Source: Roseicyclus marinus (lineage in GTDB: Bacteria; Pseudomonadota; Alphaproteobacteria; Rhodobacterales; Rhodobacteraceae). From it: a DNA stretch of 64,000 bases. Shown piece after piece: positions 45,453-58,085 of this stretch (its first letter is position 1; each line of letters opens with the position of its first letter). The translations under genes were made by a program, and so were the position numbers. The notes below the pieces were generated by a model. The model was not told the DNA's origin and made no database searches. It saw only the letters and a program-made list of their open reading frames with translations. Location: assembly GCF_036322625.1 (NCBI RefSeq), contig NZ_AP027266.1, positions 2,669,001 to 2,733,000 on the forward strand, given 5' to 3'.

Positions 45453-46350
45453 TCAGAAGTCCGTCTCCACGTAGACCCCCGAGCAGTCGTAAGCGACTGC
45501 CGCAGCAGTTGCGCCGTTGTTCATGAACAGCCGCGGCGACAGGAACTGGGTGTTGGCAGGCAGGTCGGTCGTGATCTCCTGCTCGAACACTGCGCCGGAA
45601 ACCTCGTCGACCACCCGCACCCAGGCCGAGCTGCCATTGGGCGGTGCTGCGATGAACAGGGACAAAACGCCGCCGGTGGCGATGGCGAAACTCGCCCCCA
45701 TGTCCGTCAACGTCGGCGCGCCGGTGCCGTCGTTTGCCACCAGTTGCCAGCGGGTGTGGGTGCCGCGCTGGAAGCCGATGCCGATGCAGTTGATGGCGGT
45801 GGCCAGCGTCAGCGTTGTGACCAGCGCAGCCGTCGATCCGTAAAGCCCGAAGAACCCCATGCCAGTCGCCTGTAGGGTTGTCAGCGAAATCCGCGTGACG
45901 AAGGTCCAGCCACCAAGCCCCGTCGCATTGCCGCGCCAGCAGGCCCAACCGGCAGAACGCTGCTCGGCCGCCGAATCCACCACCGCCGCCGAGGTCAGCC
46001 GCCAGCGGCGCATGCTGGCGGCAAGGTTCGTTGCGGCCAGCGTGGGGGTGGACACGGTGCCGACCGAGGTAATGGGCAAGCCTTCGCTGGTGATCGTGGT
46101 GGTGACCGAGGGCGACCAGTTGGCGATCCGGTTGACCCCGAAATTTGGCTGGAGCGGGAAGTCCCGACCAGACGGGCGCATCACGTCGATCCACGGGGCC
46201 CCCGCCCGGTTGCGGGCATAGACGGCAGCCTTGCCAGTGGGCGGCGCGCTGGGGGCCGCGCTGAGCCCGGGCAGTATTGTCGGCTGCGGCAGTTCTACCT
46301 GGCCGCTGGTGCGGTCGATCCTGATTGCATCGAAGAAGGCCGAGCCGTCC
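45453..46350 (-). pseudogene. Phage tail protein, N-terminally truncated
   Basis: About 300 codons of a Rhodobacteraceae prophage tail/structural protein (DUF2793-like C-terminal portion: DGSAFFDAIRIDRTSGQVELPQP, APPTGKAAVYARNRAGAPWIDVMRPSGRDFPLQPNFGVNRIANW). The conserved upstream part is missing; the sequence switches to LssY-type coding near 46350. It shares orientation with the tail module at 49335-57299, from which 3 kb of foreign DNA separate it. Confidence 0.65.
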
Positions 46351-47637
46351 GGACCCTTCCGGTACGCAGAAGGTCGGCTGTAAGAAGGTCTCGCTCGGCA
46401 TCGACGTCCGGGGCGATGCGGTGCGTCAGGCCCCACTTGATACCCGCGTCGAAACTTGCGGTACCGACATAGACCTGCAGCCCACCTGCGACCTAGGTCG
46501 GCACTCGCCAGAAGCGGGCGTGATGGCGCTGGCGAAGACCTTCGGCCGGAACAGATCGTTCAAATCCAAAATCCTGTGGCCAGCCATTCCAAAAGATCGG
46601 TGTGATCGGAGCCGTGTCATAGGACCGGTCCAGCCATGCCGCTACCGCAGCCCGAGAAATCGTCCGAAGCGTGGGCCGGTCCGCCACTTGCCACCCAGCT
46701 GCGGTCACGATGTCCAGAAGGGCCGCGTCATCTGACGCGAAGAGAATGATGCTGACAGGTTCCTGGGGGGTGCCGATGATGCTTTCGGTGCGGGCCGGAA
46801 GCACGCCGTCCTGCAGGGCCTGTTCGACGGATGAGTTAAGCTGGACCTCCGCCCTGGGCGCCACCAGCCGCAGGGTCTCGGGGTAGTCCACCACGACCAG
46901 CCATACGGCTGCTGCAGAGACCGCCACTATACATGCGCTAATCCAACGCAACCGAGTTCTTTTGGGGGACGTTTCGATTTTATGGCGGCTGGCGCGACCC
47001 CAATGTTCGGCGGCGAACATGCCTGTAATCGCCCAGAGCACACCGACGACATAACCGTTCAGGACGTCGCTCAGGAAGTGTTCGTCGAGATATAGGCGGC
47101 TCAGTCCCACCAGGAACACGAGACTGGCGCAAACCAGCACCCAGAGAATGTCGCGCCCGATACGTTCGCGGACAAGAACGTAAGTCACGAAGATGCAGAA
47201 TGCCGCAATGGCCGCACTGTGTCCGCTGGGGAAAGAATAGCTGCTCTCCGAATAGACCGCGAAGTTCGATCTGGCGCGGGCAAACACCAGCTTGAGCACC
47301 GTGACGGTGATCTGGTTTCCCGCGAGCACAAGCCAGAGGGCGGGAATATACGCCCGTCGATCCCAGACCCACATCATCGCGGTCGCGGCGAGCGCCATGA
47401 CCACGATAGCGCGCCATTGGCCCACTCCAGTCACGATGCTGAAGAACCGGATCAACGTGTCATCACGGAACCCGTAGAGCATATTGGCCAGACGGGTATC
47501 CGCCTCGACGATCGGTCCGCGGCCGACGAGCTCCAATGCCAGTTCGGCATAGAGGCCAAGAAAATAAAGGAATGTGAGCGCGAGCAACGTCGCTGGCAGC
47601 CCCCAGAAAGTTTGGAGCGACACTCGGGCGGCTGGAG
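46351..47637 (-). pseudogene. Broken PAP2 phosphatase/LssY C-terminal domain protein
   Basis: PAP2 membrane phosphatase domain with PSGHS and SRLYLDEHFLSD intact (the KxxxxxxRP motif reads KLVFARARS), followed by a LssY C-terminal domain (AGWQVADRPTLRTISR, PIFWNGWPQDFGFE, then VYVGTASFDAGIKWGLTHRIAPDVDAERD). A TAG near 46492 interrupts the LssY part in frame, where Glu would be expected. The 5' end is cut by the IS3 element at 47637 and the 3' end by the phage junction. Not expected to make a full protein. Confidence 0.75.
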
Positions 47638-47700
47638 TGCCCCCACTGAAGTGGTCCACCAAGTGGGATAGTCTTATCCCGATTTCAGGAGGACCAAGAG

Positions 47701-47979
47701 ATGGCTGGAAAGCGAGACAAACCGGAAGAGATCGTGCTGAAGCTGCGGCAGGTTGAAGTTCTGCAAGGACAGGGCAACTCGATCGCTGATGCTGTTCGGC
47801 AGATCGGCGTAACGCAGCAGACCTATTATCGATGGCGCAAAGAATATGGTGGCATGAGCCGTGATCAGTTGAAGCGGCTGAAGGAGTTGGAGATCGAGAA
47901 TACACGGCTCAGGCGTGCCGTGTCGGACTTGACGCTGGACAAGATGATCCTGACCGAGGCCGCCCGGGGAAACTTCTGA
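47701..47979 (+). CDS. IS3 family transposase OrfA
   Basis: 92 aa helix-turn-helix plus leucine-zipper protein (IVLKLRQVEVLQGQGNSIADAVRQIGVTQQTYYRWRKEYGG, ELEIENTRLRRAVSDLTLDKMIL). Typical of the IS407/IS51-like branch. AGGAGG site 11 nt upstream. OrfB continues in the -1 frame from its end, so a fused OrfAB by frameshifting is expected. Confidence 0.92.
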   Translation: MAGKRDKPEEIVLKLRQVEVLQGQGNSIADAVRQIGVTQQTYYRWRKEYGGMSRDQLKRLKELEIENTRLRRAVSDLTLDKMILTEAARGNF

Positions 47980-48011
47980 GCCCTTCCCGCCGTCGTCAGT
48001 GCATAGATCAT

Positions 48012-48827
48012 GTGCGGCAGGCCCTTGGCGTGTCTGAGCGCCGGGCTTGCCGCACCCTCGGGCAGCATCGTTCCACGCAGCGCAAGGTTCCCTGTGGCCT
48101 GCCGGACGAAGAGCAACTGACCGATGACATCATTGAGCTGGCGCGAGAGTTCGGGCGCTATGGATATCGCATGATCACCGGGATGCTGAACAACAGCGGC
48201 TGGCATGTGAACCATAAGAGGGTCGAACGGATCTGGCGGCAGGAGGGGCTGAAAGTCCCGCAAAAACAACCCAAGAAGGGACGGCTCTGGCTGAATGATG
48301 GGTCGTGCGTCCGGCTCCGGCCAGAACGCCCAAACCACGTTTGGTCCTATGACTTCGTCCAGGATCGAACCCACGACGGGCGGACCTTCCGCACCCTCAA
48401 TATCATCGATGAGTTCACGAAGGAGGCCCTTGTCATCCGCGTCAAACGCAAGCTCAATTCAACCGACGTGCTCGACGCTCTGACTGACTTGTTCATCTTG
48501 CGCGGCCCACCCGCGTTTATAAGGTCCGACAATGGCGCGGAATTTATCGCCAAGAAGGTGCGCACCTGGATTGGCGCGGTAGGCGCCAAGACGGCCTTCA
48601 TCGCACCAGGATCTCCATGGGAGAACGGCTATTGCGAAAGCTTCAATGCCCGCTTCCGGGACGAGCTTTTGAACGGCGAGGTCTTCTATACGCTGCGAGA
48701 GGCCCAGATCCTGATCGAGAGATGGCGGCGCCACTACAACACAGTCAGACCGCACAGCGCTCTGGGATACCGGCCACCAGCACCCGAAAGCATCGTCCCA
48801 ATAGACCAGAGGCCGACCATGCACTAA
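48012..48827 (+). CDS. IS3 family transposase OrfB (DDE integrase)
   Basis: 271 aa from ATG/GTG-proximal start at 48012; the -1 frame is open back to about 47970 (KLLSPSRRRQCIDHV), consistent with expression as OrfAB fusion. rve-type catalytic residues: D in WSYDFVQDRT, D in RSDNGAEF and E in ARFRDELL. HTH_21 region precedes it. Intact, so the element may still be mobile. Confidence 0.92.
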   Translation: MRQALGVSERRACRTLGQHRSTQRKVPCGLPDEEQLTDDIIELAREFGRYGYRMITGMLNNSGWHVNHKRVERIWRQEGLKVPQKQPKKGRLWLNDGSCVRLRPERPNHVWSYDFVQDRTHDGRTFRTLNIIDEFTKEALVIRVKRKLNSTDVLDALTDLFILRGPPAFIRSDNGAEFIAKKVRTWIGAVGAKTAFIAPGSPWENGYCESFNARFRDELLNGEVFYTLREAQILIERWRRHYNTVRPHSALGYRPPAPESIVPIDQRPTMH

Positions 48828-48856
48828 CATTCACACCGGACCACTCGATGGGGGCA

Positions 48857-49306
48857 GACCAAGTCCTATTGGATGTGATCACCCAGGCAAAAAATGAACT
48901 TTTCTTGGTAAGTTTTGTTGCAGGAGATTGGCAGCGGATCATTGAGGAACTCAAAAAAGCTCACCAACGCGGCATAACTATTCAGGTCTTGTTAGAGGCT
49001 TCCAAAGCAGATGGCGGCACATTGGACCATGACCAATCCAGAGAACTTCTCAGGGCCGTTCCAAATGCGAAAATTTATCGCTGGTTGGAAAAAAGCACTG
49101 AGCACCATGGCGGGAAGGTCCATGCGAAGATCGCATTAGCTGATGATAAAATGGCATTTATCAGTAGCGCGAACTTCACAGGTCATGCAATGGAAAAAAA
49201 CTTAGAGGCTGGCCTGCTAGTTTCGGGTGGACACGTGCCGATTGACCTTAAGAAGCACTTAAAGGGACTTATTGAACTGAATGTAATTTCTGCGGTTGGC
49301 TCGTAG
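48857..49306 (+). pseudogene. Phospholipase D-like protein, 5' end removed (DrmC-like)
   Basis: About 150 residues of a PLD-family protein starting exactly at the IS end. The single HKD motif is intact (VHAKIALAD, then FISSANFTGHAMEKN). The tail NLEAGLLVSGG..PIDLKKHLKGLIELNVI recalls DrmC of DISARM and similar single-HKD defence proteins; this is from memory of family patterns. Base composition is visibly AT-richer than all neighbours, a sign of foreign origin. Without its start it is likely a remnant. Confidence 0.7.
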
Positions 49307-49334: not shown

Positions 49335-50591
49335 TCACAGCCTTTCCCTTGGAGAAGCCGCGTGTGGAAGAGGCCCTGAGTGGCAACTCACCACCACCAT
49401 CCCCGTCAAATGCCAGACTGCCGCCATCATGATCCCCATATTGAAGGCAAACTCGTTGGCGCAGCTCTGCTTGAAGAACTCCCCCTCGAGGAACATGCAG
49501 GACCCTTTGCAGAGCTGAACGACGGGGCATGACATGCATTCATCTCGGAAGGCAAAATGCGTTGCGGTGTCGAGCGCGATGGCGTCGAAGTCGGCGACGT
49601 GGCCGATCTTGTGCGCCCCCTTGGCCCCGGTATTCTGGCAGGTCATGACGTTCCCGCGCAGATCAACAGCGATGGCGTCCGGGCTGTCCATTCCGCATTT
49701 CTGGCCCAGGGCCTCGATCGGCCGCCGACGCTGGATCGAGGAATAGAACTCGTTGATGCGCTCCCCAAGGCCGAAGGCATTCGGGTCCTCCGCCAGCGCC
49801 TCGAAGATGGACCGCGTCAGGCTATTCAGTTCCGCGGGTTCGAACCGCCCTGTCCCGATTGCGGTCGCTGCGTCATAGACATTCACCACGCCCTCGAGCC
49901 CGACGAAGATGTCCGGCCCGACCTTTTCGGCGAACCAGGCCTTGAGCGCCCGAAGGTCGTGATGCTGGCGCGTCAGAACCGCGTTAAAACCGGTCTTTTC
50001 GGGGCGATCGGCCAGCAGGGTTTGGATCCAGTGGCTCTTGGCAGGATCGTCGAACGGATCCGGCCCGCGCAGATGCTGACCGGGCCCGTCATGTGAGATC
50101 GTGATTTCAATGTCGTGTTCGGCGATGAAATCCAACTTTTCGCAGGAGAGGAGCGAACCGTTCGTGACGATCGAGAAGCGCGCTGCCGGGAAGCGCTCTG
50201 CCAGCGCCGGGATCAGGCGCTTGATCTTGGCCCAGTAAAGGAAGGGTTCACCGCCCCAGAGCTCGATCTTTTCCGGGGCGTCGGTGATCCAACTGTCGAG
50301 CTGGGTCAGGAAGTGCTCGACATCGGCCAGCTTCGAGACCGTGGCATCGGCGATCTGGAAGGCCTGACTGCAGTAGCTGCAGGAATAGTTGCAGGAGAGC
50401 CCAAGCTGGATTTTCAAAACGCGGGGTGCGCGAGATTTTCCGAGGGGCTTGTCTTTGGCCACGCGCGGCACTGGCGCGAAGATTCCCGGTTCTACCGGCA
50501 GCGGCAGCCCCTCGCATTCGGAGGTGTGCGGGTTGTAGCGCACGTGATGGCGGCAGCCGTCACGCGCTTCCAGCGTCAGATCGAACCACAT
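49335..50591 (-). CDS. Radical SAM/SPASM domain peptide-modifying enzyme
   Basis: 418 aa. Radical SAM cluster C67-x3-C71-x2-C74 ([11 protein letters not shown]), glycine-rich WGGEPFLYW and [15 protein letters not shown] region with many cysteines follows ([25 protein letters not shown], then [17 protein letters not shown] and a final SC before ANEFAFNMG), expected to hold auxiliary FeS clusters. SPASM enzymes mostly modify peptides. It overlaps the 2OG oxygenase by ATGA and is last in the phage tail operon, 3 nt spacing from the Cys-rich peptide via that oxygenase. The final 20 residues look non-conserved and may come from the junction with foreign DNA. Confidence 0.9.
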
Positions 50592-51223
50592 CAGTCGAAC
50601 AGCCTTTCTTCGATTGCGGTGGGCAGGGTGACGCGGAAGTTCGCGACGACCTGCACATGGGGCGTGCTCCCCTCGTAGGGGTGCTGGTTGTGAGGAATAT
50701 GAGAGGGGAAGAAGACCGAGAGTCCCGGCCGCGGGTTGACTGAATAGCCGTGACGGCTCTCATGGGGCAGTCGCCCCTCATCGAAGTACCGCGACGGATC
50801 CTCGATCACGAAGCGCGGGGTGCCAACACTGTTCACCGGCTGGCCCGCCCCACTGCCGGTCAGGAAGTGGACGCAGGTCAGCTCGCCCTCGCGGCTGTCC
50901 TTGTGGGTTGAGATGAAGCCACCAGGCTCAATGACGAGGGCACGGTTTTCGCAATGATCGGAGTCGAGATATCGAGCCCAGGGGCCGAGGACGGCACGCG
51001 CGCAGGCAAAGAGATGGGCCTTCAGCGCCTGACCAGCTTCGCTCCGCTCGAGAATGCCACGCACCCGGCGTTTGGCAGCGCTGAGCGGACTAGCGCCGCC
51101 ATCTCCGCCAACCGCTGCCATGGCCTCATCCGCGAGCTGGCGATTGACCTCCCAGTCCACCGGAGCCTCAAAAAAACTTACATGGGTGGGCCAGAGCGCA
51201 AGGTTTGTCTGCTGCACTTCCAT
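50591..51223 (-). CDS. 2OG-Fe(II) oxygenase family protein (cassette copy 1)
   Basis: 210 aa. Fe-binding H107-K-D109 in FISTHKDSREGELTCVHFLTG, a distal His at H175 or H178 in FFPSHIPHNQHPYEG and Arg197 for 2-oxoglutarate. Starts 2 nt after the peptide gene stop and overlaps the radical SAM gene. It is of the prolyl-hydroxylase-like fold. Placement suggests hydroxylation of the Cys-rich peptide or of tail proteins; this is inferred. Confidence 0.82.
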   Translation of the reverse strand: MEVQQTNLALWPTHVSFFEAPVDWEVNRQLADEAMAAVGGDGGASPLSAAKRRVRGILERSEAGQALKAHLFACARAVLGPWARYLDSDHCENRALVIEPGGFISTHKDSREGELTCVHFLTGSGAGQPVNSVGTPRFVIEDPSRYFDEGRLPHESRHGYSVNPRPGLSVFFPSHIPHNQHPYEGSTPHVQVVANFRVTLPTAIEERLFD

Positions 51224-51225
51224 CG

Positions 51226-51519
51226 TCAGCACCGGCAGGCGCAGTTGCAATTGAAGTAAGCACGGTTTGCCGTAACGGAAACTGCCCCTGTGGTTCCACC
51301 TCCCGAGAGGCTGGCGACATAACAATTGGCTGTGCAATTGCAGTTGCCGCCTCCGCTGCCGCTGACGGCTGTAAAAGGCGATCCCGTTGAGGGAGTGCCG
51401 TTAGCGACAGTGACGGCGGTGATGTCACCGGTGCCAATCGCTGGCTTGTTGGCGATACGAGACCAATCCACAAAGCCGCTGTCGTCGATCACGATCGTTG
51501 TTCCGACCTTATAGGCCAT
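51226..51519 (-). CDS. Small Cys-rich tail-associated peptide, candidate modification substrate
   Basis: 97 aa; start at 51519 has AAGGAGG. Residues 1-30 (MAYKVGTTIVIDDSGFVDWS, then RIANKP) resemble the start of phage tail-fibre proteins. Residues 31-58 are Gly/Ser/Thr-rich, and the C-terminal 40 residues carry seven cysteines at 60, 62, 66, 91, 93, 95 and 97, mostly as C-x-C, and end in Cys. No cysteines occur before residue 60. This leader/core asymmetry and the radical SAM/SPASM neighbour fit a RiPP precursor; a metal-binding or cross-linked tail-tip peptide is the alternative. The start lies within the 3' end of the second oxygenase gene. Confidence 0.8.
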   Translation of the reverse strand: MAYKVGTTIVIDDSGFVDWSRIANKPAIGTGDITAVTVANGTPSTGSPFTAVSGSGGGNCNCTANCYVASLSGGGTTGAVSVTANRAYFNCNCACRC

Positions 51520-52249
51520 GGCTGCCTCCTTGCGCCTGATGGGCCAGGATCTCGGAGAGACCGGCCTTGCAGTGGGAATTGGGGAGATCGAGGGAGCACA
51601 GGACCGGAATACACATCCGTTCCTCGCCATCGAAATAGGTGCTGTCATGCGGCACATGCCCCTCGAAGACGAGCATGGAGCCCGTCCGAGGCTCGACCGC
51701 ATACCAGCCGCCGACATAGGCCTCCGGGTTGTTGCAGGGCCACAGCCGCTTGCCGACATTGGCCGGATCGTAAAACCGCACCGCCCCGCGATGGAGCGAA
51801 GTCTCGGGGCAATCGGCGTTCAACACCACCCGCGGGTAATAGGTGCAGACGATGTCGGTCTGGATATGGGTATGCGCGTTGATCCCGACGTTTTCCCGCG
51901 CGGCACGGCGCTGCCAGAAGGTGTCTGACATCATGGCGATCTCGCCGGTGTGGTCGTAGCCATAGGCCAGTTGCAGGTATTCCCGCACGGCTGCCGCCAC
52001 CATCTGCGCCAGCACCGCAATGGCCGGGTCCCGCCGGTCAATCAGGAAGTTGTGCCGCAGATGCCCAAGATGGTTGGTCTGATCGCCGACATTGCGGCCG
52101 TCGCCCGCCTCCCGGATGCGATTATCTTCGGCATCCTCGGCCGCCAGCGCGTGGAGGCGGTCATTGAAGCCATCGGGCATCTGCCAATGTTTGTGCAGGA
52201 CAAAGCTTGGATAGATCAGCTGGAATTCACTCGTGGTCTGAATTTCCAT
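51509..52249 (-). CDS. 2OG-Fe(II) oxygenase family protein (cassette copy 2)
   Basis: 246 aa, 2OG-FeII_Oxy_5-like. Candidate iron ligands in GINAHTHIQTDIVCTYYPR (H126/H128, D132) and FEGHVPHDSTYFDGEERMCIP (H198 or H201, R211). Such proteins are known near tail genes of phages. It overlaps the upstream phage structural gene (ATGA) and its end covers the start of the Cys-rich peptide by 11 nt, so all are translated from one mRNA. Only distantly similar to copy 1. Confidence 0.8.
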   Translation of the reverse strand: MEIQTTSEFQLIYPSFVLHKHWQMPDGFNDRLHALAAEDAEDNRIREAGDGRNVGDQTNHLGHLRHNFLIDRRDPAIAVLAQMVAAAVREYLQLAYGYDHTGEIAMMSDTFWQRRAARENVGINAHTHIQTDIVCTYYPRVVLNADCPETSLHRGAVRFYDPANVGKRLWPCNNPEAYVGGWYAVEPRTGSMLVFEGHVPHDSTYFDGEERMCIPVLCSLDLPNSHCKAGLSEILAHQAQGGSHGL

Positions 52250-53151
52250 CAGGTGACCTCCAGCACGATTTTGCCGATCGCGGTGTAATGCTCGGTGTTG
52301 AGCTTCACGGCGATGCGGTCGCCCACGGAAAGCCCCAGCGCCTCGATGGCAAAGCAGCCCGTGCCATCAGCGGCAGTGATCAGACGGCGTTTCGGCAGAT
52401 AGCCCGCGTCGCTTTCCAGTTTCAGCGCGATGGCATGGGCAAAGGCTGAACCATCCGCGTTCCACCTGAGCGCGATAGGCACATCCACTCGCTCACCGGC
52501 TGGCACGGTGGCAGCCTCTAGGCCCTGGGCGTGGAAGTAGAACTGCTTGTACCAGAGCCCGTCCTTTGGGATGGTCGCATCGTCGACCGTGCCTGCTTGC
52601 ACTGTGCCGTTCAGCAAGATCGGCGGGATCTGACACAGGACCTCGATCCGGGCCTGATCGAAGGGCACCACCACAGGCAGAAAGACCACCAGCGCGTTCG
52701 AGATGCCTTCGAGTGCCCGGTACCGGAACGAGGTGTCAATTTTTTCGCGGGCGGATCGGGCAAAGCGGTTCCGCCAGGAGAGCGGCCTTCCGTCAGCGCC
52801 GACAGCCATGTCGATCAGCGCGTGATCGACGATTTCATCATGACCCCGCATGCCGGTTGCAAAGAGACCAGATCGGCCCTTGTAGATAGCCCCCATCGGC
52901 GCGTCAGGGAGGTCCGGGACAAAACATTCGTTGTGGGCCAGATCCACAAAGCCCGCTTGATTGCCAAAGGCAGGCCGCGCCTCGAGATGCGGCAGAAGAT
53001 CGGCCCAGAGCATGACCCCGCCCATGCCAGTTGCCGTACCAGGGTTTGCGAACTCGAAGACAGCAATCGAGACATAGTCTGGTTTGACATCGACCGCGTA
53101 ATGGCGCGGCACTCCACAATTGGTGATGGCATAAAGTCCGGTCGCGATCAT
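52249..53151 (-). CDS. Phage tail-region structural protein, unknown function
   Basis: 300 aa, no signal or membrane segment. N-terminal VSIAVFEFANPGTATGMGGVMLW and a beta-rich C-terminal part (VPAGERVDVPIALRWNADGSAFAHAIALKLESD, KLNTEHYTAIGKIVLEV). Overlaps both neighbours by ATGA. I recognise it only as a typical hypothetical of this prophage type. Confidence 0.6.
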   Translation of the reverse strand: MIATGLYAITNCGVPRHYAVDVKPDYVSIAVFEFANPGTATGMGGVMLWADLLPHLEARPAFGNQAGFVDLAHNECFVPDLPDAPMGAIYKGRSGLFATGMRGHDEIVDHALIDMAVGADGRPLSWRNRFARSAREKIDTSFRYRALEGISNALVVFLPVVVPFDQARIEVLCQIPPILLNGTVQAGTVDDATIPKDGLWYKQFYFHAQGLEAATVPAGERVDVPIALRWNADGSAFAHAIALKLESDAGYLPKRRLITAADGTGCFAIEALGLSVGDRIAVKLNTEHYTAIGKIVLEVT

Positions 53152-53741
53152 GGGACGCCCCCTTTCAGCTGATCGACCTCTTGGGCAAGGTCCTTGATGG
53201 CCTCGATGAGGAGGCCCACGAGATTGCCGTAAGCGAGGCGCAGCATGCCTTCGGCCTCAACCACGGCTTCTGGCGCGACGGCCTGCACTTGCTGCGCGAT
53301 GAGGCCCATCTGCCGCGCATCACTGCCCGCCATGGTGAAGGTGACGCCGGTCAGCGCTTGCACTTTGGTCAGCGCATCCGCGATGGGCGCGATGTCGGAT
53401 TTCAGCCGCGCGTCCGAGGATGAGACGAAGTTCGGCGCGGTCACCGTGCCGGTGAAGGTCGCCCCTGACAGAAGCGCGAAGGCGCTTGCATGCGCTCCAT
53501 CAAGCAGATCGGCATCAAGGCCGGACCCCGCGCCATCCTGCGCAGTCACCTTGGCGAAGATCTGGGCGTCGGTGAGCGCGGCCGACGTGACATCGACGAT
53601 GCTTTCGACTCCGCCCGTAGCCTTCTTGAGGTAGAGCTTGCCGTCGGTGACATTGACGGCGAGTTCCCCGGCAGCCAGCTGCGCCGTGGTGGGCACGCGG
53701 CCTGCTACTGTCGTGCGCTTGACGAGAAGCGTGTTCGGCAT
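53148..53741 (-). CDS. Tail fibre protein with C-terminal S74 intramolecular chaperone
   Basis: 197 aa. N-terminus MPNTLLVKRTTVAGRVPTTAQLAAGELAVN is the virion-attachment type shared with the next fibre gene. The C-terminal part (SSDARLKSDIAPIADALTKVQALTGVTFTM, then RQMGLIAQQVQAVAPEAV) is the endosialidase-chaperone/peptidase S74 domain that trimerises fibres and then cuts itself off at the Ser of the SSDARLK motif. Adjacent to fibre gene by 2 nt. Confidence 0.88.
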   Translation of the reverse strand: MPNTLLVKRTTVAGRVPTTAQLAAGELAVNVTDGKLYLKKATGGVESIVDVTSAALTDAQIFAKVTAQDGAGSGLDADLLDGAHASAFALLSGATFTGTVTAPNFVSSSDARLKSDIAPIADALTKVQALTGVTFTMAGSDARQMGLIAQQVQAVAPEAVVEAEGMLRLAYGNLVGLLIEAIKDLAQEVDQLKGGVP

Positions 53742-53743
53742 GG

Positions 53744-54988
53744 TCAGAACGTGCCCCCGTCGAGCGCGATCCCGTCGATCGACCCGCCGGTGATCGCGAC
53801 GCTGTTCGCGGCTTGCGTAGCGAGTGAGCCAAGCCCAAGGTTGGTGCGCGCCGTGGCCTTGTTCGGCAGATCCGAGAGGTTCGAAGCGGCGGAGAGCTTG
53901 CCCGCCAGCGCGTTTGTGACCGTGGTGGCGAAGTTCGGATCGTCCCCGAGGGCCGCCGCCAACTCATTCAGCGTGTCCATCGCGCCGGGTGCGGCATCGA
54001 TCAACGCGCCAATGGCGGCGGCCACGAAGGCGGTCGTCGCGATCTGGGTCGTGTTGGTGCCTGCAAGGGCCGTGGGCGCCGTCGGTGTTCCGGTCAGGGC
54101 GGGCGAGGCCAGTGCCGCCTTGGCATCGATCGCGGTCTGCAGGCCGGTGACCTGCGAGATCGCATGGCTGTGGGTCGAGGGCGGAAAGCTGGTGGGCTTG
54201 CCGGTAATCCCTGCCCAGGGTGCTGCATCCGCCACCTCTGCCGCATCGACCTTGCCGTCCGCATCTGTGTCATAGGTTGCGGCCAACATGTCACCGGGGC
54301 CGAAGTCGACAATGGCCTGCTGAACGAAGGCGGTCGTCGCCACCTGCGTGGTGTTCGTCCCCGACAGCGCGGTCGGCGCGGTTGGCGTGCCGTTAAGCGC
54401 AGGCGAGGCCAGCGGTGCCTTTACATCAAGCGCGGCCTGCAGCCCGTCCACGTTTGCAATGACATGGGCATGGCTGTCATCGGCCACAGCGGCGGTGATC
54501 GTGACATTCGCGGAGCCGTCAAAGCTGACGGATCCGGAGAGATCGCCCGCTAGCGCGATGGTTCGGGCAGTTGCAAGCTTGCTTGCCGAGACCGCGTTCG
54601 CCGTCGCGCCGAGCTTGGCATCAAGCGCGCCTTGCAGGCCGGTGACGTCAGCAATGGCGTGGCTGTGGCTGAGTGCCGCTTTCGCGGCAAGGCCGGCATC
54701 CAGTTGCGACTTGCGTACGAGATCGGTCGCGGCACTGGCGTCCTGGGCGGATTTGGGGACGAGAGAGAAGGTCTTGGACCCGCCCACGGTCTGCGTTCCC
54801 ACCAGTGCGAGAAAGCCGCCGCTGCCAGCCACCGGAACAATTGAAGTCGCATTACCCGCCCCGTCATCGCCCTTGCCGACATAGAGCGTGTCATCGACCT
54901 CATTATGGGCAATCTCGCCAGATTTGAGCGCAGCAGGCGCGCCTGCCACGCCCGAGACGCGGCGTTTGAGTTGGATCGTATTGGCCAT
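53744..54988 (-). CDS. Phage tail fibre protein with internal repeats
   Basis: 414 aa. Attachment segment MANTIQLKRRVSG...GEIAHNEVDDTLYVGKG, then fibre repeats: HSHAIADVTGLQGALDAK-type units at residues 108, 173 and 273, and a 36-residue unit (ASPALNGTPTAPTALSGTNT...) at 191-226 and again at 291-326. PWAGITGKPTSFPPSTHSH is a tail-collar fibre hallmark and recalls the WSRIANKP segment of the Cys-rich peptide. Receptor-binding role inferred. Confidence 0.85.
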   Translation of the reverse strand: MANTIQLKRRVSGVAGAPAALKSGEIAHNEVDDTLYVGKGDDGAGNATSIVPVAGSGGFLALVGTQTVGGSKTFSLVPKSAQDASAATDLVRKSQLDAGLAAKAALSHSHAIADVTGLQGALDAKLGATANAVSASKLATARTIALAGDLSGSVSFDGSANVTITAAVADDSHAHVIANVDGLQAALDVKAPLASPALNGTPTAPTALSGTNTTQVATTAFVQQAIVDFGPGDMLAATYDTDADGKVDAAEVADAAPWAGITGKPTSFPPSTHSHAISQVTGLQTAIDAKAALASPALTGTPTAPTALAGTNTTQIATTAFVAAAIGALIDAAPGAMDTLNELAAALGDDPNFATTVTNALAGKLSAASNLSDLPNKATARTNLGLGSLATQAANSVAITGGSIDGIALDGGTF

Positions 54989-55215
54989 CAGAAGAAACCT
55001 CCGTTGATGGGAGCGTCGGTCGGAAGAATGGTGATGCCGGGCGCGCCCTGATCACCCTTGTCGCCTTGCGGGCCGGTTGATCCCTGCGGTCCCGGCTGGC
55101 CGAGAATTCGGATCCCGATAGGCCCTGTGGCAAGGCGCAGCGCGATCGGTGCTTCCGAGGTCACAGAGATGCGGATCGGCCCCGTGAACGATCGCAGGTC
55201 CAGCGCTGTCGCCAT
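54988..55215 (-). CDS. Short protein with collagen-like repeats
   Basis: 75 aa. Residues about 33-60 carry Gly-X-Y triplets (GQPGPQGSTGPQGDKGDQGA), the collagen-like motif found in phage fibres; a beta-rich segment comes first. ATGA overlap with the fibre gene. Probably a trimeric connector of the tail fibre. Confidence 0.75.
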   Translation of the reverse strand: MATALDLRSFTGPIRISVTSEAPIALRLATGPIGIRILGQPGPQGSTGPQGDKGDQGAPGITILPTDAPINGGFF

Positions 55216-55218
55216 GGC

Positions 55219-55581
55219 TCAGAGCCCCCCGGAAACAGCGAACCTTGTCACCGGCAGGGCCACCGGAATTTCCAGCACGAAGCCGAGGTGCCGGTCTGGT
55301 TCGAGATCGGTGCGGACCAAATCGAGGACGACGCCACCGGGCGCGAGGCTGGCGGTCACCGCCGGCGCCAGAACAATTTCCAGCGTGCGCACGTCCACGC
55401 GCAGCACGCTGCCCGCCGCAGTGGAGAGTTCTGCCACCACGGTCGCGGCGGTGATCGCGCTGCGCACTTGGCCCACAAAGCTGGCCTCCTCGGGGAAGAG
55501 ATCAGCCTCGGCCTGCAACTGCAGCCGATATTCGTAGCCGATCAGGATGACCGGACCTTCTTGGACTTGGACACTGCTCAT
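55219..55581 (-). CDS. Phage tail-region hypothetical protein
   Basis: 120 aa, beta-rich (YEYRLQLQAEADLFPEEASFVGQVRSAITAATVV, VLDLVRTDLEPDRHLGFVLEIPVALP), no known domain. Start MSSVQVQEG at 55581 overlaps the Rz1-like stop. Structural role likely from context only. Confidence 0.6.
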   Translation of the reverse strand: MSSVQVQEGPVILIGYEYRLQLQAEADLFPEEASFVGQVRSAITAATVVAELSTAAGSVLRVDVRTLEIVLAPAVTASLAPGGVVLDLVRTDLEPDRHLGFVLEIPVALPVTRFAVSGGL

Positions 55582-55778
55582 GGTTGCCACCCGCAAAGCT
55601 GCGCGCCGGTCTCATTGTGGGCCAGTATCTGCCGTGCCGTGCCCTCGCTTAACTGGTCAGCCCGCGACGGCCGGATCGGCTCTGCCCAGTCGCAGCCGGA
55701 GATCACGCCGGGATCAGTCGCGCATCCAGCGGTCAAGACGGCGATTACGCTCAGCCGCAGGCAAAGCTTCAATCTCAT
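55578..55778 (-). CDS. Rz1-like outer-membrane spanin lipoprotein
   Basis: 66 aa starting MRLKLCLRLSVIAVLTAGCA: signal with lipobox LTAGC. It begins inside the Rz-like gene in another frame, the embedded arrangement characteristic of Rz/Rz1. It would fuse outer and inner membranes with its partner during lysis. Confidence 0.7.
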   Translation of the reverse strand: MRLKLCLRLSVIAVLTAGCATDPGVISGCDWAEPIRPSRADQLSEGTARQILAHNETGAQLCGWQP

Positions 55779-55971
55779 GGTGAACCTCTCGGGATATGCG
55801 CAGCCCGCGGATGCGGGCCTCGGCTGCACGAATGGCAAACTCTGCCTCGGCTGCATGGCGCCCCTTGCGTTTGGCAATGCGCAGGGCAGAGCCCAGGATC
55901 AGAATGAGGGCGGCCCACAGCGCAACGCGCTGGCCAAAGGCCGAGGCGAGCCGTCTGACGATGGCGATCAT
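55714..55971 (-). CDS. Rz-like inner-membrane spanin
   Basis: 85 aa: N-terminal membrane anchor (about 12-30, VALWAALILILGSAL) and a charged alpha-helical coiled-coil periplasmic part (AEAEFAIRAAEARIRGLRISREVHHEIEALPAAERNRRLDRWM). Overlaps endolysin upstream (ATGA) and Rz1-like gene downstream out of frame. Confidence 0.7.
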   Translation of the reverse strand: MIAIVRRLASAFGQRVALWAALILILGSALRIAKRKGRHAAEAEFAIRAAEARIRGLRISREVHHEIEALPAAERNRRLDRWMRD

Positions 55972-56900
55972 GGCGTCCGCCCCGTCCGGTGGTCCTCGAT
56001 CCGGGCTGCGCGGGCTTTCCAGGCCAGCACGATGACCGCAAGGAAGATTGCTGCCCCAAGGAGTGGCATGACGACCGGGGCATGGCTTCCCAATCCCAAA
56101 AGATCCAAGAGGCGCGTTGCCAGATCACGTCCTTCCTCGGCCTGTCCAACGAGCGGTGCGACATCGCTGATAGCGATGCCAGCATAACCTGCGGCCCCAA
56201 GCGCTATCTGGGCGTTTGACGCCGCCAAGATACGCGAGCCCTCAGGACTGCCCGTCGCGCGGTCGATCGCCACCGACCTCGGGCGCGCCGTGGTCAGGGC
56301 GTCGGTCAGCGCCACATCGATGATCGGCACGAGGGCAAGGTCGTTGTCATGCCGGAAGGCCAGAATGGCAGCGCGGGTGCGCGGCCCGATCTTTCCATCG
56401 ATTTGACCCACCTCGTGATAGCCGAGGTCCTTCAGACGTCTTTGCACCGCCTCGACGGACAGCATCACGCTCGGCGCGACATTGCCTGCACGGCGCACCC
56501 CGAGAAGCTTTGCGACCGGATAGCGCTTCACATTGACGGCGTCGTCTTGGTTGCCGCCGAGGCCCCAGACCCATTGACCCTCAATTCGGTCGATGAAGAA
56601 CACATGGCCCTGCCAGCTCGAAGTCCCGCGCGGGATGATCCCGATATCGCCAGGCTGCGCCTCCGCGATCTCCACCGGCACGCCCCAATCGAGATAGGAG
56701 CGTGCAGTCAATTGCCGGGTCGAGCGGATCCCCGCCCGCTCGAGGCAATGCCCGACAAAGGCCGCGCACCAGGCCACGCTATCATGCTCGACCCAGTCAT
56801 GCCCCACCGAGGCATACATCTCCATGATGACCGGATTGTTCTCGGGGCCCGGGCCCTCGGTCGTGCCGATATACCCTCGGGCAATCTCACAGGGCGTCAT
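55968..56900 (-). CDS. Phage endolysin: TIGR02594-type peptidase with peptidoglycan-binding domain
   Basis: 310 aa, start at 56900 after GGGGAGAG. N-terminal NlpC/P60-like part (residues about 1-130) with Cys in WCAAFVGHCLERAG, SYLDWG, QPGDIGIIPRG and His in WQGHVFFIDR. Then PG-binding repeat (SVEAVQRRLKDLGYHEVGQIDGKIGPRTRAAILAF) and a C-terminal membrane segment (VVMPLLGAAIFLAVIVLAW). The membrane tail suggests a tethered lysin or secretion-held form. Confidence 0.82.
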   Translation of the reverse strand: MTPCEIARGYIGTTEGPGPENNPVIMEMYASVGHDWVEHDSVAWCAAFVGHCLERAGIRSTRQLTARSYLDWGVPVEIAEAQPGDIGIIPRGTSSWQGHVFFIDRIEGQWVWGLGGNQDDAVNVKRYPVAKLLGVRRAGNVAPSVMLSVEAVQRRLKDLGYHEVGQIDGKIGPRTRAAILAFRHDNDLALVPIIDVALTDALTTARPRSVAIDRATGSPEGSRILAASNAQIALGAAGYAGIAISDVAPLVGQAEEGRDLATRLLDLLGLGSHAPVVMPLLGAAIFLAVIVLAWKARAARIEDHRTGRTP

Positions 56901-56926
56901 GCTGCTCTCCCCTGCAAAAGCAAAAC

Positions 56927-56946
56927 GCCGCCCCAAAAGGGACGGC
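56927..56946 (-). terminator. Terminator-like hairpin between holin and endolysin genes
   Basis: GCCGCCCC-AAAA-GGGACGGC, 7 of 8 pairs; on the minus strand it is followed by GTTTTGCTTTTG. May attenuate the lysis transcript. Confidence 0.5.
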
Positions 56947-56987
56947 GCCAGGTGGTGGTGGTGAAGAAGTCCGCGTCGATCAGCGGC

Positions 56988-57299
56988 TTATTTCCTGCGG
57001 CAAAGCCAGGCCGTCAGAACGGCCTCGGCGCCCCGCGGTCCGAGATAGGCCAGTGTTGCCACAAATCCTGTGCTCACGGGTTGGGTGAGGCCCATGTAAC
57101 TCGCCGCAGCATCACCAATGAGCGCCATGCCGACGGCGACGGGGATTTCCCACAAAAGCTCCTTGCCGAAGAAGCGCCGCCGCCCGAGCTTCACCTCGCC
57201 TGAATGATACATCAGCCGCCCCGTGAAGGCCCCGATCAGCGTGGTGACAGCCCCTCCGAAGATGCTGTGCAAGGTTTCCAGAAAGCCCGGCTCGGTCAT
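56988..57299 (-). CDS. Putative holin
   Basis: 103 aa with two or three hydrophobic segments (GGAVTTLIGAFTGRLMY, EIPVAVGMALIGDAAASYMG, GFVATLAYLG) and charged ends (KLGRRRFFGKELL; LCRRK). Size, topology and position before the endolysin fit a phage holin. Start at 57299 after GAGGAGG; a GTG two codons earlier is less well placed. Confidence 0.7.
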   Translation of the reverse strand: MTEPGFLETLHSIFGGAVTTLIGAFTGRLMYHSGEVKLGRRRFFGKELLWEIPVAVGMALIGDAAASYMGLTQPVSTGFVATLAYLGPRGAEAVLTAWLCRRK

Positions 57300-57391
57300 G
57301 GGCACCTCCTCGTGAGTGCGCGCAGCCTCTTGCGACTGCGTGACTTTGGTCTATATATCGACCTGTTTTCAGACCTGATCAGGTGAATGCC

Positions 57392-57637
57392 ATGCAGCGC
57401 ATCGAAGCCCAGGCCGCCGTCAGCGTGTCGGACTTAAAAAAGAACCCTTCCCAGGTGATCGCGCAGGCAGGCGGCGAGGCCGTTGCGGTGCTCAACCACA
57501 ACCGCGTCATGGCCTATATGGTCCCCGCCGCGCGCTACGAGGCGATCATGGACCATCTCGACGATCTGGATCTGGCCGAGATCATCCGGCGTCGCGCGGA
57601 TGAAGACCCGGTTCGGGTCGGACTCGATGAGCTATGA
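57392..57637 (+). CDS. Phd/YefM-RelB type antitoxin
   Basis: 81 aa. VSVSDLKKNPSQVIAQAGGEAVAVLNHNRVMAYMVPAARYEAIMD is the Phd/YefM (StbD/RelB) DNA-binding fold; acidic C-terminus for toxin binding. ATG at 57392 follows AGGTGA. Its toxin gene overlaps it by 11 nt but is truncated. Confidence 0.88.
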   Translation: MQRIEAQAAVSVSDLKKNPSQVIAQAGGEAVAVLNHNRVMAYMVPAARYEAIMDHLDDLDLAEIIRRRADEDPVRVGLDEL

Positions 57638-57808
57638 GCTGCAGTTCCTGCCTTCTGCCCTGAAGGAATGGCACAAGCTTGGGGCCACGCTTCAGATCCA
57701 GTTCAAAAAGAAGCTGCGCGAGCGGCTGGCGCGCCCCCATGTTCCCGCCGACGCCCTGCACGGCATGCCTGCCCACTACAAGATCAAGCTGCGAAGCGCC
57801 GGCTATCG
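57627..57808 (+). pseudogene. RelE/StbE-type toxin, 3' truncated
   Basis: First 61 codons of a RelE toxin (SYELQFLPSALKEWHKLGATLQIQFKKKLRERLARP, MPAHYKIKLRSAGYR) and then an abrupt switch at the IS21-type end (57809). The C-terminal strand with catalytic Arg/Tyr residues is lost, so the toxin should be inactive. Confidence 0.8.
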
Positions 57809-58085
57809 TGTCAACGGCGGAGTAAAAATGGGCCAGGGGGCGGCGCAAAATTGGGCCACTTTTGGTTTGCGCGGGACGCGTGTGATGGGCGGCGGCCAGT
57901 CAGCCGCGCTCACCGTGGAGCTGGCGGGTGACTGGCCGCCCTGGACCGCCAGGTCCAAGTTTGGGCTTTGGATCAGGTGTGGTCGCCGGTCTTGCGCGCG
58001 CGGCTTTGCGCGAGGCGATAGCTTTCGCCGTTCATCGCGACGATGTTGACGTGGTGGGTCAGCCGGTTCGAAGAGCGCGCCGGTC
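57809..58085 (-). mobile_element. IS21-family remnant with IstB C-terminal fragment
   Basis: Starts TGTCAACGGCGGAGTAAAAA with repeated GGGCCA blocks typical of IS21 ends. On the minus strand codons ending 57973-57975 encode NRLTHHVNIVAMNGESYRLA..SRARKTGDHT, the C-terminus of the IstB helper ATPase. The rest of istB and istA is gone; DNA returns to chromosomal genes at about 58085. Confidence 0.75.

Follow-up and report, generated by a model that had tools for sequence, protein, structure and literature searches.

At the 3′ end of a phage lysis and tail-fibre block in Roseicyclus marinus, a radical SAM (rSAM)/SPASM enzyme and two putative 2OG-Fe(II) oxygenases are encoded beside a 97-residue cysteine-rich protein, which raises the question of what such modification enzymes do in a tail operon. 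A sequence-only reading of the 64,000-nucleotide stretch analysed here (the window) had placed these four genes at 49335–52249, and all were found there on the minus strand. It took them for something like a RiPP pathway, possibly for maturing either a tail-tip peptide or a released weapon. Tail-tip maturation is the best reading: we put at roughly 60% the probability that the cassette serves to complete a phage's tail-fibre tip, with the rSAM enzyme cross-linking a run of alternating cysteines and the protein T300, the oxygenases and Hint domains acting in support. A literature search found no description of such a system.

The genes run in the order tail fibre, S74 tail protein, T300, OxyB, 97-residue protein, OxyA and rSAM/SPASM enzyme (Table 1). 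T300 and OxyB have one base in common (TGATG), as do OxyA and the rSAM gene; the gene for the 97-residue protein shares 11 bases with OxyB, with a two-base gap between its stop and the start of OxyA. An ATGA overlap, previously said to join the cassette to the tail genes, does occur at the S74/T300 junction, but not between T300 and OxyB. The whole block spans 49335–57305, with the cassette as its 3′ end, and the genes identified at 49–57 kb of the window are lysis and tail-fibre genes only. Comparison with related loci revealed matches to the rSAM enzyme, S74 protein, tail fibre and endolysin in 14 of 14 and to the holin in 12 of 14. The claim that the modification enzymes belong to a tail operon is supported. 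The tailocin weapon was dropped as a candidate, nothing pointing to it having been seen among these lysis and tail-fibre genes.

Table 1. Features of the lysis and tail-fibre block, in window positions.
Feature	Positions	Strand	Remarks
Radical SAM/SPASM enzyme (418 aa)	49335..50591	-	member of phrog_1802; probably matures the Cys run
OxyA, 2OG-Fe(II) oxygenase (210 aa)	50591..51223	-	sub-threshold PF13759; putative HxD...H ligands conserved in 35 homologues
97-aa tail-operon protein (7 Cys)	51226..51519	-	alternating x-Cys run at the C-terminus; N-terminal domain conserved, middle part variable
(xC)n motif NCNCACRC	51229..51252	-	C-terminus of the 97-aa protein
OxyB, 2OG-Fe(II) oxygenase (246 aa)	51509..52249	-	TIGR02466-like, below cut-off; sub-threshold PF13759
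T300 (300 aa), beta-rich, family unknown	52249..53151	-	found repeatedly with the (xC)n protein and rSAM enzyme
Tail protein with Peptidase_S74 intramolecular chaperone	53148..53741	-	
Tail fibre with phage tail repeats (PTR)	53744..54988	-	
Collagen-like ORF (below cut-off) and lysis genes (PG-binding endolysin, Phage_holin_3_3)	54988..57305	-	matched in relatives

The association of enzyme and cysteine run was followed from both sides. Starting from the enzyme, 80 of 154 relatives were kept, and the last five genes (T300 to rSAM) are arranged alike at 35 of the 107 enzyme-fetched loci. Among the 78 enzyme-fetched loci with at least 3 kb of upstream DNA, 58 encode, no more than 3.5 kb away and on the enzyme's own strand, a protein with a C-terminal [NDA]C≥3 run, as against none of 78 on the opposite strand and 2 of 296 random anchors. 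These full-set counts include related loci many times over; once similar enzymes had been removed, the strict run was present in 17 of 30 loci. Looser C-terminal runs of xC≥3 were found in 62/78 (same strand), 11/78 (opposite strand) and 38/293 (random), and of xC≥4 in 62/78, 3/78 and 15/287, respectively. Any xC≥3 run in any frame within 4 kb occurs at 74 of 78 rSAM loci and 140 of 293 random anchors, a control that is too loose, and the C-terminal definition was used instead. A further loose count, in which motif-fetched loci are mixed in (155/168 loci; 124/128 with 3 kb upstream), was relied on for the composition of x only.

Counting against the cross-linking reading, twenty of the 78 loci have no C-terminal [NDA]C run. 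Four of them (L059, L060, L095 and L099) have a run followed by a Hint domain, L057 has a cysteine-rich but non-alternating stretch ahead of a Hint-like region, seven have an internal cysteine-rich domain and four have runs with other x residues; no such run or domain was found in L009, L014, L019 and L083. On the supporting side, two phage rSAM loci whose enzymes are less related (CPt10 and EarlPhillipIV) gave no xC≥3 run in the roughly 10 kb examined; the rSAM enzymes of Campylobacter and Erwinia phages have only the core in common, at about 29–33% identity.

The reverse scan, for DNA encoding (NC[ND]C)2, returned at least 120 stretches, of which 117 of those listed were new. Among the matches listed, 82 of 117 motif loci have an rSAM profile match (E≤1e-5) within 6 kb, 58 of them with at least 400 bits, compared with one of 119 loci (L332) in a control with Tyr in place of Cys. 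When the run lies within 15 residues of the stop and at least 2.5 kb of downstream DNA is available, an rSAM match is present in 60 of 64 loci among the matches listed, versus 1 of 15 for the Tyr control. Of the 60 matches listed, 45 score at least 400 bits, 11 score 100–400 and four score below 100, and some of the weak ones probably are other rSAM families or are cut by a contig end. The strict loci without an rSAM match, among the matches listed, are L148 and L169, where reading by eye found no phage-looking genes, L205, whose motif context is that of L169, and L218, with only 2.7 kb of downstream DNA. These counts are a sample, since only the matches listed were taken, and they overlap in part with the enzyme-first counts, because 10 of 80 stretches listed are, or share contigs with, enzyme-fetched loci. 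Association in both directions upholds the earlier proposal that the enzymes travel with a cysteine-rich protein; conservation beside the peptide in related loci, on which the sequence-only reading had staked itself, is clearly kept, and on this point the reading was not refuted.

What had been called a cysteine-rich peptide does contain seven cysteines, but some 33 residues at its N-terminus form a conserved domain that L059 and L066 also encode, in small ORFs and without cysteines, so that the C-terminal alternating run is the telling part. Over the run loci x is mostly Asn and the acceptor residue is not fixed, unlike the Asp/Glu of PapB, a point against the cross-linking. Some run-bearing proteins have tail-fibre architectures: that of L094 combines a T7-type tail-fibre N-terminus with collagen and PTR repeats, and in L060 collagen-like repeats immediately precede the run. 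No NCBIfam model matched the cysteine-rich proteins of about 300 residues in L096 and L103. Hint domains are typically self-cleaving, and PF05203 scored above cut-off directly after the run in both proteins tested, from L060 and Achromobacter phage 2-1; further Hint-looking regions follow the run in other phages, as judged by eye. This arrangement resembles Hedgehog/intein-type Hint proteins, but the window protein has no Hint domain and its run is already C-terminal.

Metal-capped tail spikes are known, and the run could itself bind a metal or an Fe-S cluster at the tip of a trimeric spike, with the rSAM enzyme modifying something else or aiding assembly. A C-x-C strand in a trimer would be expected to place rows of thiolates on one face, and the collagen-like repeats of L060 fit such a tip. 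A metal site alone, however, leaves the near-constant rSAM match (60/64, matches listed) unexplained, and we regard this explanation as unlikely.

The window enzyme matches PF04055 above cut-off (E 2e-8), the NCBIfam SPASM domain model TIGR04085 passes its cut-off, and the phrog_1802 profile, which spans rSAM core and SPASM, matches the window enzyme with E 1.2e-52 and 54 of 54 aligned members at E≤1e-10. The entry, a ‘radical SAM domain-containing protein’ in the category ‘other’, gives no substrate or function. Conserved cysteines of the window enzyme are C67, C71, C74, C299, C318, C352, C355, C361, C365 and C377; the CX3CX2C motif with the three SAM cysteines is present in 53–54 of 54 aligned enzymes, and the seven SPASM cysteines in all 54, in a layout like that of the thioether synthase CteB. 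Foldseek with the rSAM model gave CteB (5why) as the best match, with a moderate TM of 0.54, and PapB (NF047865) is the best NCBIfam model, at 65.7 of 340 bits and thus far below cut-off. An rSAM enzyme with a seven-cysteine SPASM domain adjoining a cysteine-rich substrate is the arrangement of the ranthipeptide/SCIFF maturases PapB and CteB. One SPASM cluster of CteB is described in a review as having an open site that is bound by a substrate cysteine (PMC8172795), and PapB is reported to take Cys-Xn-Asp with n=0–6 (PMC9413430).

The set differs from these maturases and does not look like a classical RiPP pathway. Here the putative substrate comes from a phage tail operon and carries its cysteines in alternation; the window rSAM model contains no RRE-type leader-binding domain (strands at residues 3–8, 14–20 and 25–27, no helix before residue 75; 66–112 residues precede CX3CX2C in 53 aligned enzymes, one member having no exact motif), which also counts against the cross-linking reading; and neither an exporter nor a leader protease stood out when the ORFs were read by eye.

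By fold, anSME is equally similar to the window enzyme (TM 0.55–0.57, slightly above CteB). It too is a SPASM enzyme that acts on a cysteine, anSMEcpe ranks with the closest relatives by fold and by sequence, and the homologue in Achromobacter phage JWF is annotated as an anaerobic sulfatase maturase. The cysteines might then be oxidised to formylglycine, an aldehyde, and the tip, made reactive in this way, would form bonds with host-surface amines. This appears doubtful, because the auxiliary set of eight cysteines is incomplete here, the extra anSME-type SPASM cysteine (+6 after the first SPASM cysteine) being absent from all 54 aligned enzymes, and the anSME model reaches 34.3 of 349 bits, far below cut-off; nor would single-site oxidation be expected to call for a long alternating run. 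Epimerisation of every second residue, for which PoyD-type epimerases are the model, could turn the run into a beta-helix of alternating D and L residues and possibly a pore. The period-2 pattern and a distant fold match to the epimerase EpeE (8ai4) speak for it, but we consider this very improbable: EpeE stands at rank 50 among the matches listed, and a seven-cysteine SPASM domain with CteB as best match fits cross-linking better. An ordinary bacteriocin-like cassette stranded by chance in a prophage, suggested by the RiPP-cluster look of rSAM enzyme, small cysteine-rich ORF and oxygenases, was dropped as highly unlikely given the T7-type tail fibre that bears the run in L094, the tail and endolysin matches beside the rSAM enzyme in all 14 relatives compared and, in the ORFs read by eye, the absence of any obvious exporter or leader protease.

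For the cross-linked tip, a mechanism is proposed where the rSAM enzyme acts on the C-terminal x-Cys run of the adjoining small tail protein and probably cross-links its alternating cysteines, most likely through thioether links to neighbouring residues, either the x residues or an adjacent strand. Disulphides do not form readily in the reducing cytoplasm; a covalent link of this kind would fix the tip there and could equip a trimeric fibre with a rigid C-terminal point for contacting a receptor or entering the envelope. T300 may bind or present the tip, the two oxygenases may hydroxylate residues of the run protein or of T300, and where a Hint domain follows, its self-cleavage would leave the run as the C-terminus. 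More tentatively, diverse tailed phages might use an rSAM enzyme to turn a fibre-end run into a poly-thioether needle tip, possibly linked between chains to lock the trimer, exposed by Hint where needed and modified further by hydroxylases or by a second rSAM enzyme, that contacts the receptor or pierces the envelope; this would be a widespread, undescribed virion maturation.

The oxygenases, which the sequence-only reading counted in the set, are optional; the core is the phrog_1802 enzyme and a tail protein that ends in an alternating x-Cys run. OxyA and OxyB both match phrog_81, their Pfam matches are sub-threshold, and their putative ligands are at least 97% conserved (HxD and the distal His in 35 OxyA sequences; for OxyB the histidines H126, H128 and H201 in 45 sequences). 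Phage 2OG-Fe(II) oxygenases are placed beside tail fibres in cyanophages; here, the phrog_81 proteins are joined by an rSAM enzyme and a Cys-run protein. T300 gave no match in Pfam, NCBIfam or PHROG and no sequence match in the PDB, and its fold search returned weak Ig/macroglobulin-like matches (model-normalised TM 0.16–0.27 among the matches listed).

The pairing of run and rSAM enzyme in many distantly related phages suggests an undescribed chemical finishing of the tail tip. If true, phages would have a new form of maturation, in which rSAM chemistry acts on a structural protein of the virion, the uncharacterised family phrog_1802 would gain a purpose, and peptide-crosslinking enzymes would gain a substrate class with a cysteine at every second residue; the origin of the rigid, reduction-proof tip of some tail fibres would also become directly testable.

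Prophages of the Rhodobacteraceae, on which the sequence-only reading had focused, are too narrow a frame: the system was found in many viral contigs, in two cultured Achromobacter phages and in contigs of Rhodoplanes and Bradyrhizobium. A strict search (E≤1e-70) of 398 genomes of the phylum matched the window's own genome alone. Within the family, 394 genomes were searched for the 97-residue protein and six matched, its own included, with two weak matches that are probably another protein; tblastn with it found nothing in phage records. The pattern NC[ND]CNCRC had no match in 390 genomes, which is little informative since the window itself has NCNCACRC. Near-full-query tblastn matches to different members of the rSAM family were found in three of 50,697 phage records, which represent the two cultured phages, Achromobacter JWF and 2-1, and this scarcity among cultured-phage records may explain why the system was missed.

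The sequence-only reading had placed a set of two 2OG-Fe(II) oxygenases, a Cys-rich protein and a radical SAM/SPASM enzyme (rSAM) at the end of a tail operon, and all of these genes were located as claimed, on the minus strand. Although drawn from one genome, that observation is true and important; the same pairing of rSAM with an alternating-Cys protein was found in many phages, and this general system of an rSAM and a protein ending in alternating cysteines exceeds a one-genome cassette. As far as searched, the system is undescribed: judged by titles and abstract beginnings, in a library with few subscription papers and preprints, no publication describes a phage tail protein as the substrate of an rSAM, which does not prove absence. 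What is new is the system, the enzyme superfamily being already known. On the upstream side of the PTR-repeat tail fibre, a collagen-like ORF and genes for a PG-binding endolysin and a holin extend the block to position 57305. The rSAM, S74 protein, tail fibre and endolysin were matched in 14 of 14 related loci selected for comparison, two of which (L044 and L160) share one contig, and the holin in 12 of 14.

Genes of the operon in order, and neighbouring features of the window
Feature	Position	Strand	Remarks
PTR-repeat tail fibre	53744-54988	minus	operon order 1
S74-chaperone tail protein	53148-53741	minus	operon order 2
T300 (300-aa protein)	52249-53151	minus	operon order 3
OxyB (2OG-Fe(II) oxygenase)	51509-52249	minus	operon order 4
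97-aa Cys-rich protein	51226-51519	minus	operon order 5
OxyA (2OG-Fe(II) oxygenase)	50591-51223	minus	operon order 6
rSAM/SPASM enzyme	49335-50591	minus	operon order 7, 3'-most
PLD-like (PLDc_2) piece	48617-49306	plus	frame begins inside the IS3-type transposase gene, as if cut by insertion
IS3-type transposase	47701-48827	plus	immediately 3' of the cassette
PAP2 phosphatase	46493-47905	minus	LssY C-terminal domain
327-aa ORF	45453-46436	minus	adjoins the PAP2 phosphatase; no Pfam match; resembles a phage tail protein by eye
Phd/YefM antitoxin and ParE-like toxin	57383-58049	plus	toxin below cut-off; beside the phage block, on its holin side

Comparison of 36 distinct sequences of the window-type Cys protein revealed a constant N-terminus (MAYKVGxTIVI..G...W.RI...P) and a middle that differs in sequence as well as in length; at the C-terminus the cysteines alternate, mostly as NCNCxCRC. 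Distant relatives carry a different protein, yet an alternating x-Cys run usually adjoins the rSAM. Over 131 distinct run contexts, x is Asn in 61%, Ala in 13%, Asp in 8% and Arg in 5%, the Asn and Asp shares being inflated because the pool includes loci retrieved with an Asn/Asp pattern as well as a small number of chance frames. In a Rhodoplanes contig (L018, 7200-7981, plus strand) three unlike small Cys-rich proteins, two with an alternating run, stand in tandem ahead of one rSAM, and in L066 (6461-6815, plus strand) two ORFs of 57-58 aa consist of the MAFKIGST N-terminal domain alone, without cysteines, immediately before a Cys-run paralogue. A phage contig (L132, 170-6700, minus strand) holds three alternating-Cys ORFs and rSAM genes, and a separate ORF that looks Hint-like by eye, for which NCBIfam gives no support.

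The association of enzyme and run was observed in both directions. Starting from the enzyme, 78 rSAM-fetched loci combined a strong match with 3 kb or more of upstream sequence, and 58 of them contained a C-terminal run, defined as at least three [NDA]C units no farther than 20 aa from a stop codon, on the same strand and within 3.5 kb. The same definition gave 0/78 on the opposite strand of those loci and 2/296 at random anchors in loci fetched by a control pattern with Tyr in place of Cys codons; once similar enzymes were removed, the run was present in 17/30 rSAM-fetched loci. The 20 loci without a qualifying run include runs followed by a Hint domain (L059, L060, L095, L099), a Cys-rich, non-alternating stretch ahead of a Hint-like region (L057), internal Cys-rich domains (L096-L098, L103, L105, L106, L108) and runs with other x residues (L053, L061, L066, L067); no run of any kind was found in L009, L014, L019 and L083. 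The protein near the rSAM in L096 (9333-10238, plus strand) is about 300 aa long and has an internal Cys-rich block, and comparable proteins occur in L097, L098, L100-L106, L108 and L140, the C-terminal region after the block being similar among them; two of these Cys-rich proteins were tested against NCBIfam and gave no match.

The reverse scan, blind to the enzyme, searched viral contigs for DNA coding N-C-[N/D]-C-N-C-[N/D]-C and yielded at least 120 stretches, 117 of those listed being new. An rSAM profile match (E ≤ 1e-5) lay within 6 kb of 82 of the 117 listed stretches (58 with 400 bits or more), compared with 1/119 for the Tyr-codon pattern, whose sole matching locus (L332) has its rSAM, at 480 bits, on the opposite strand. 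With at least 2.5 kb downstream the figures were 68/82 listed versus 1/83, and with the run additionally within 15 aa of a stop 60/64 listed versus 1/15. In these 60 listed cases the best match always shared the strand of the run, and scores were no lower than 400 bits in 45, between 100 and 400 in 11 and below 100 in 4; the weaker matches probably include enzymes cut by contig ends and other rSAM families, as in L134. The two directions are incompletely independent, because among 80 listed stretches 10 coincide with rSAM-fetched loci or lie on the same contigs. The approximately 10-kb stretches around the less related rSAMs of phages CPt10 and EarlPhillipIV, which served as a small negative control (n=2), contained no xC run of three or more.

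All 54 aligned rSAM members match phrog_1802; CX3CX2C is conserved in 53-54 of them and seven SPASM cysteines in 54/54; the cofactor residues are present. The additional Cys at +6 of anSME, in contrast, occurs in 0/54, and alignment showed it to be likewise absent from CteB. Of 25 NCBIfam models listed for the window rSAM, the SPASM domain alone reaches its cut-off; PapB scores best, below cut-off. The window rSAM gives a good structure model (mean pLDDT 95), for which the thioether synthase CteB ranks first among PDB matches (E 2e-13, TM 0.54), followed by anSME, ChlB and TigE. No RRE is visible in the model, which opens with strands and lacks any helix ahead of residue 75. In a review, one SPASM cluster of CteB is described with an open site that is filled by a substrate Cys (PMC8172795). 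PapB is reported to join Cys and Asp separated by 0-6 residues, incompletely at 0 and 6, and also to make nested and in-line links (PMC9413430), which renders dense Cys runs plausible as substrates.

Some run proteins have a tail-fibre architecture. In L094 the protein that ends in the run is a tail fibre of T7 type, containing collagen and PTR repeats; in L060, where collagen repeats precede the run, and in Achromobacter phage 2-1, a Hint domain (PF05203) follows it immediately. The fibre of Achromobacter phage JWF, to which Xylophilus phage Lumi is related (PMC9959647), is annotated as a Hint-family protein, and its run sits ahead of the same motif. Putative Hint self-cleavage would expose the run, which suggests that a free C-terminal run may matter. 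A mechanism is proposed where the rSAM acts on the x-Cys run, the bond formed would be a thioether, and the product may be the tip of a trimeric fibre. Use of a radical enzyme instead of disulphides would be sensible, because the covalent link would be made in the reducing cytoplasm. T300, which is beta-rich with weak matches to Ig-like folds, could present or cap this tip, and OxyA and OxyB may hydroxylate the same proteins.

Accessory genes beside run and rSAM differ among loci. The order T300-oxygenase-Cys protein-oxygenase-rSAM is kept in 35 of 107 rSAM-fetched loci (27 on genome contigs, the others being 80 of the 154 relatives on viral contigs): 27 are plain and 8 show an additional peptide-profile match ahead of the first oxygenase, an artefact that lies out of frame and is due to the open start. 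The oxygenase profile labels are exchanged in L052 and L053; in L048 and L054 the first four genes are present, and the contig ends within the rSAM. The remaining loci are partial, or more distant with different partners. Among loci with 3 kb upstream, and with similar enzymes removed, T300 was present in 17/30 rSAM-fetched and 27/32 motif-fetched loci, oxygenases in 13/30 and 17/32, and a second rSAM in 4/30 and 3/32, respectively. Several ORFs after the run carry an rSAM motif in L134, and L022 contains an Asp/Asn-hydroxylase-like gene (PF05118, slightly under cut-off) and a weakly matched desaturase-like gene.
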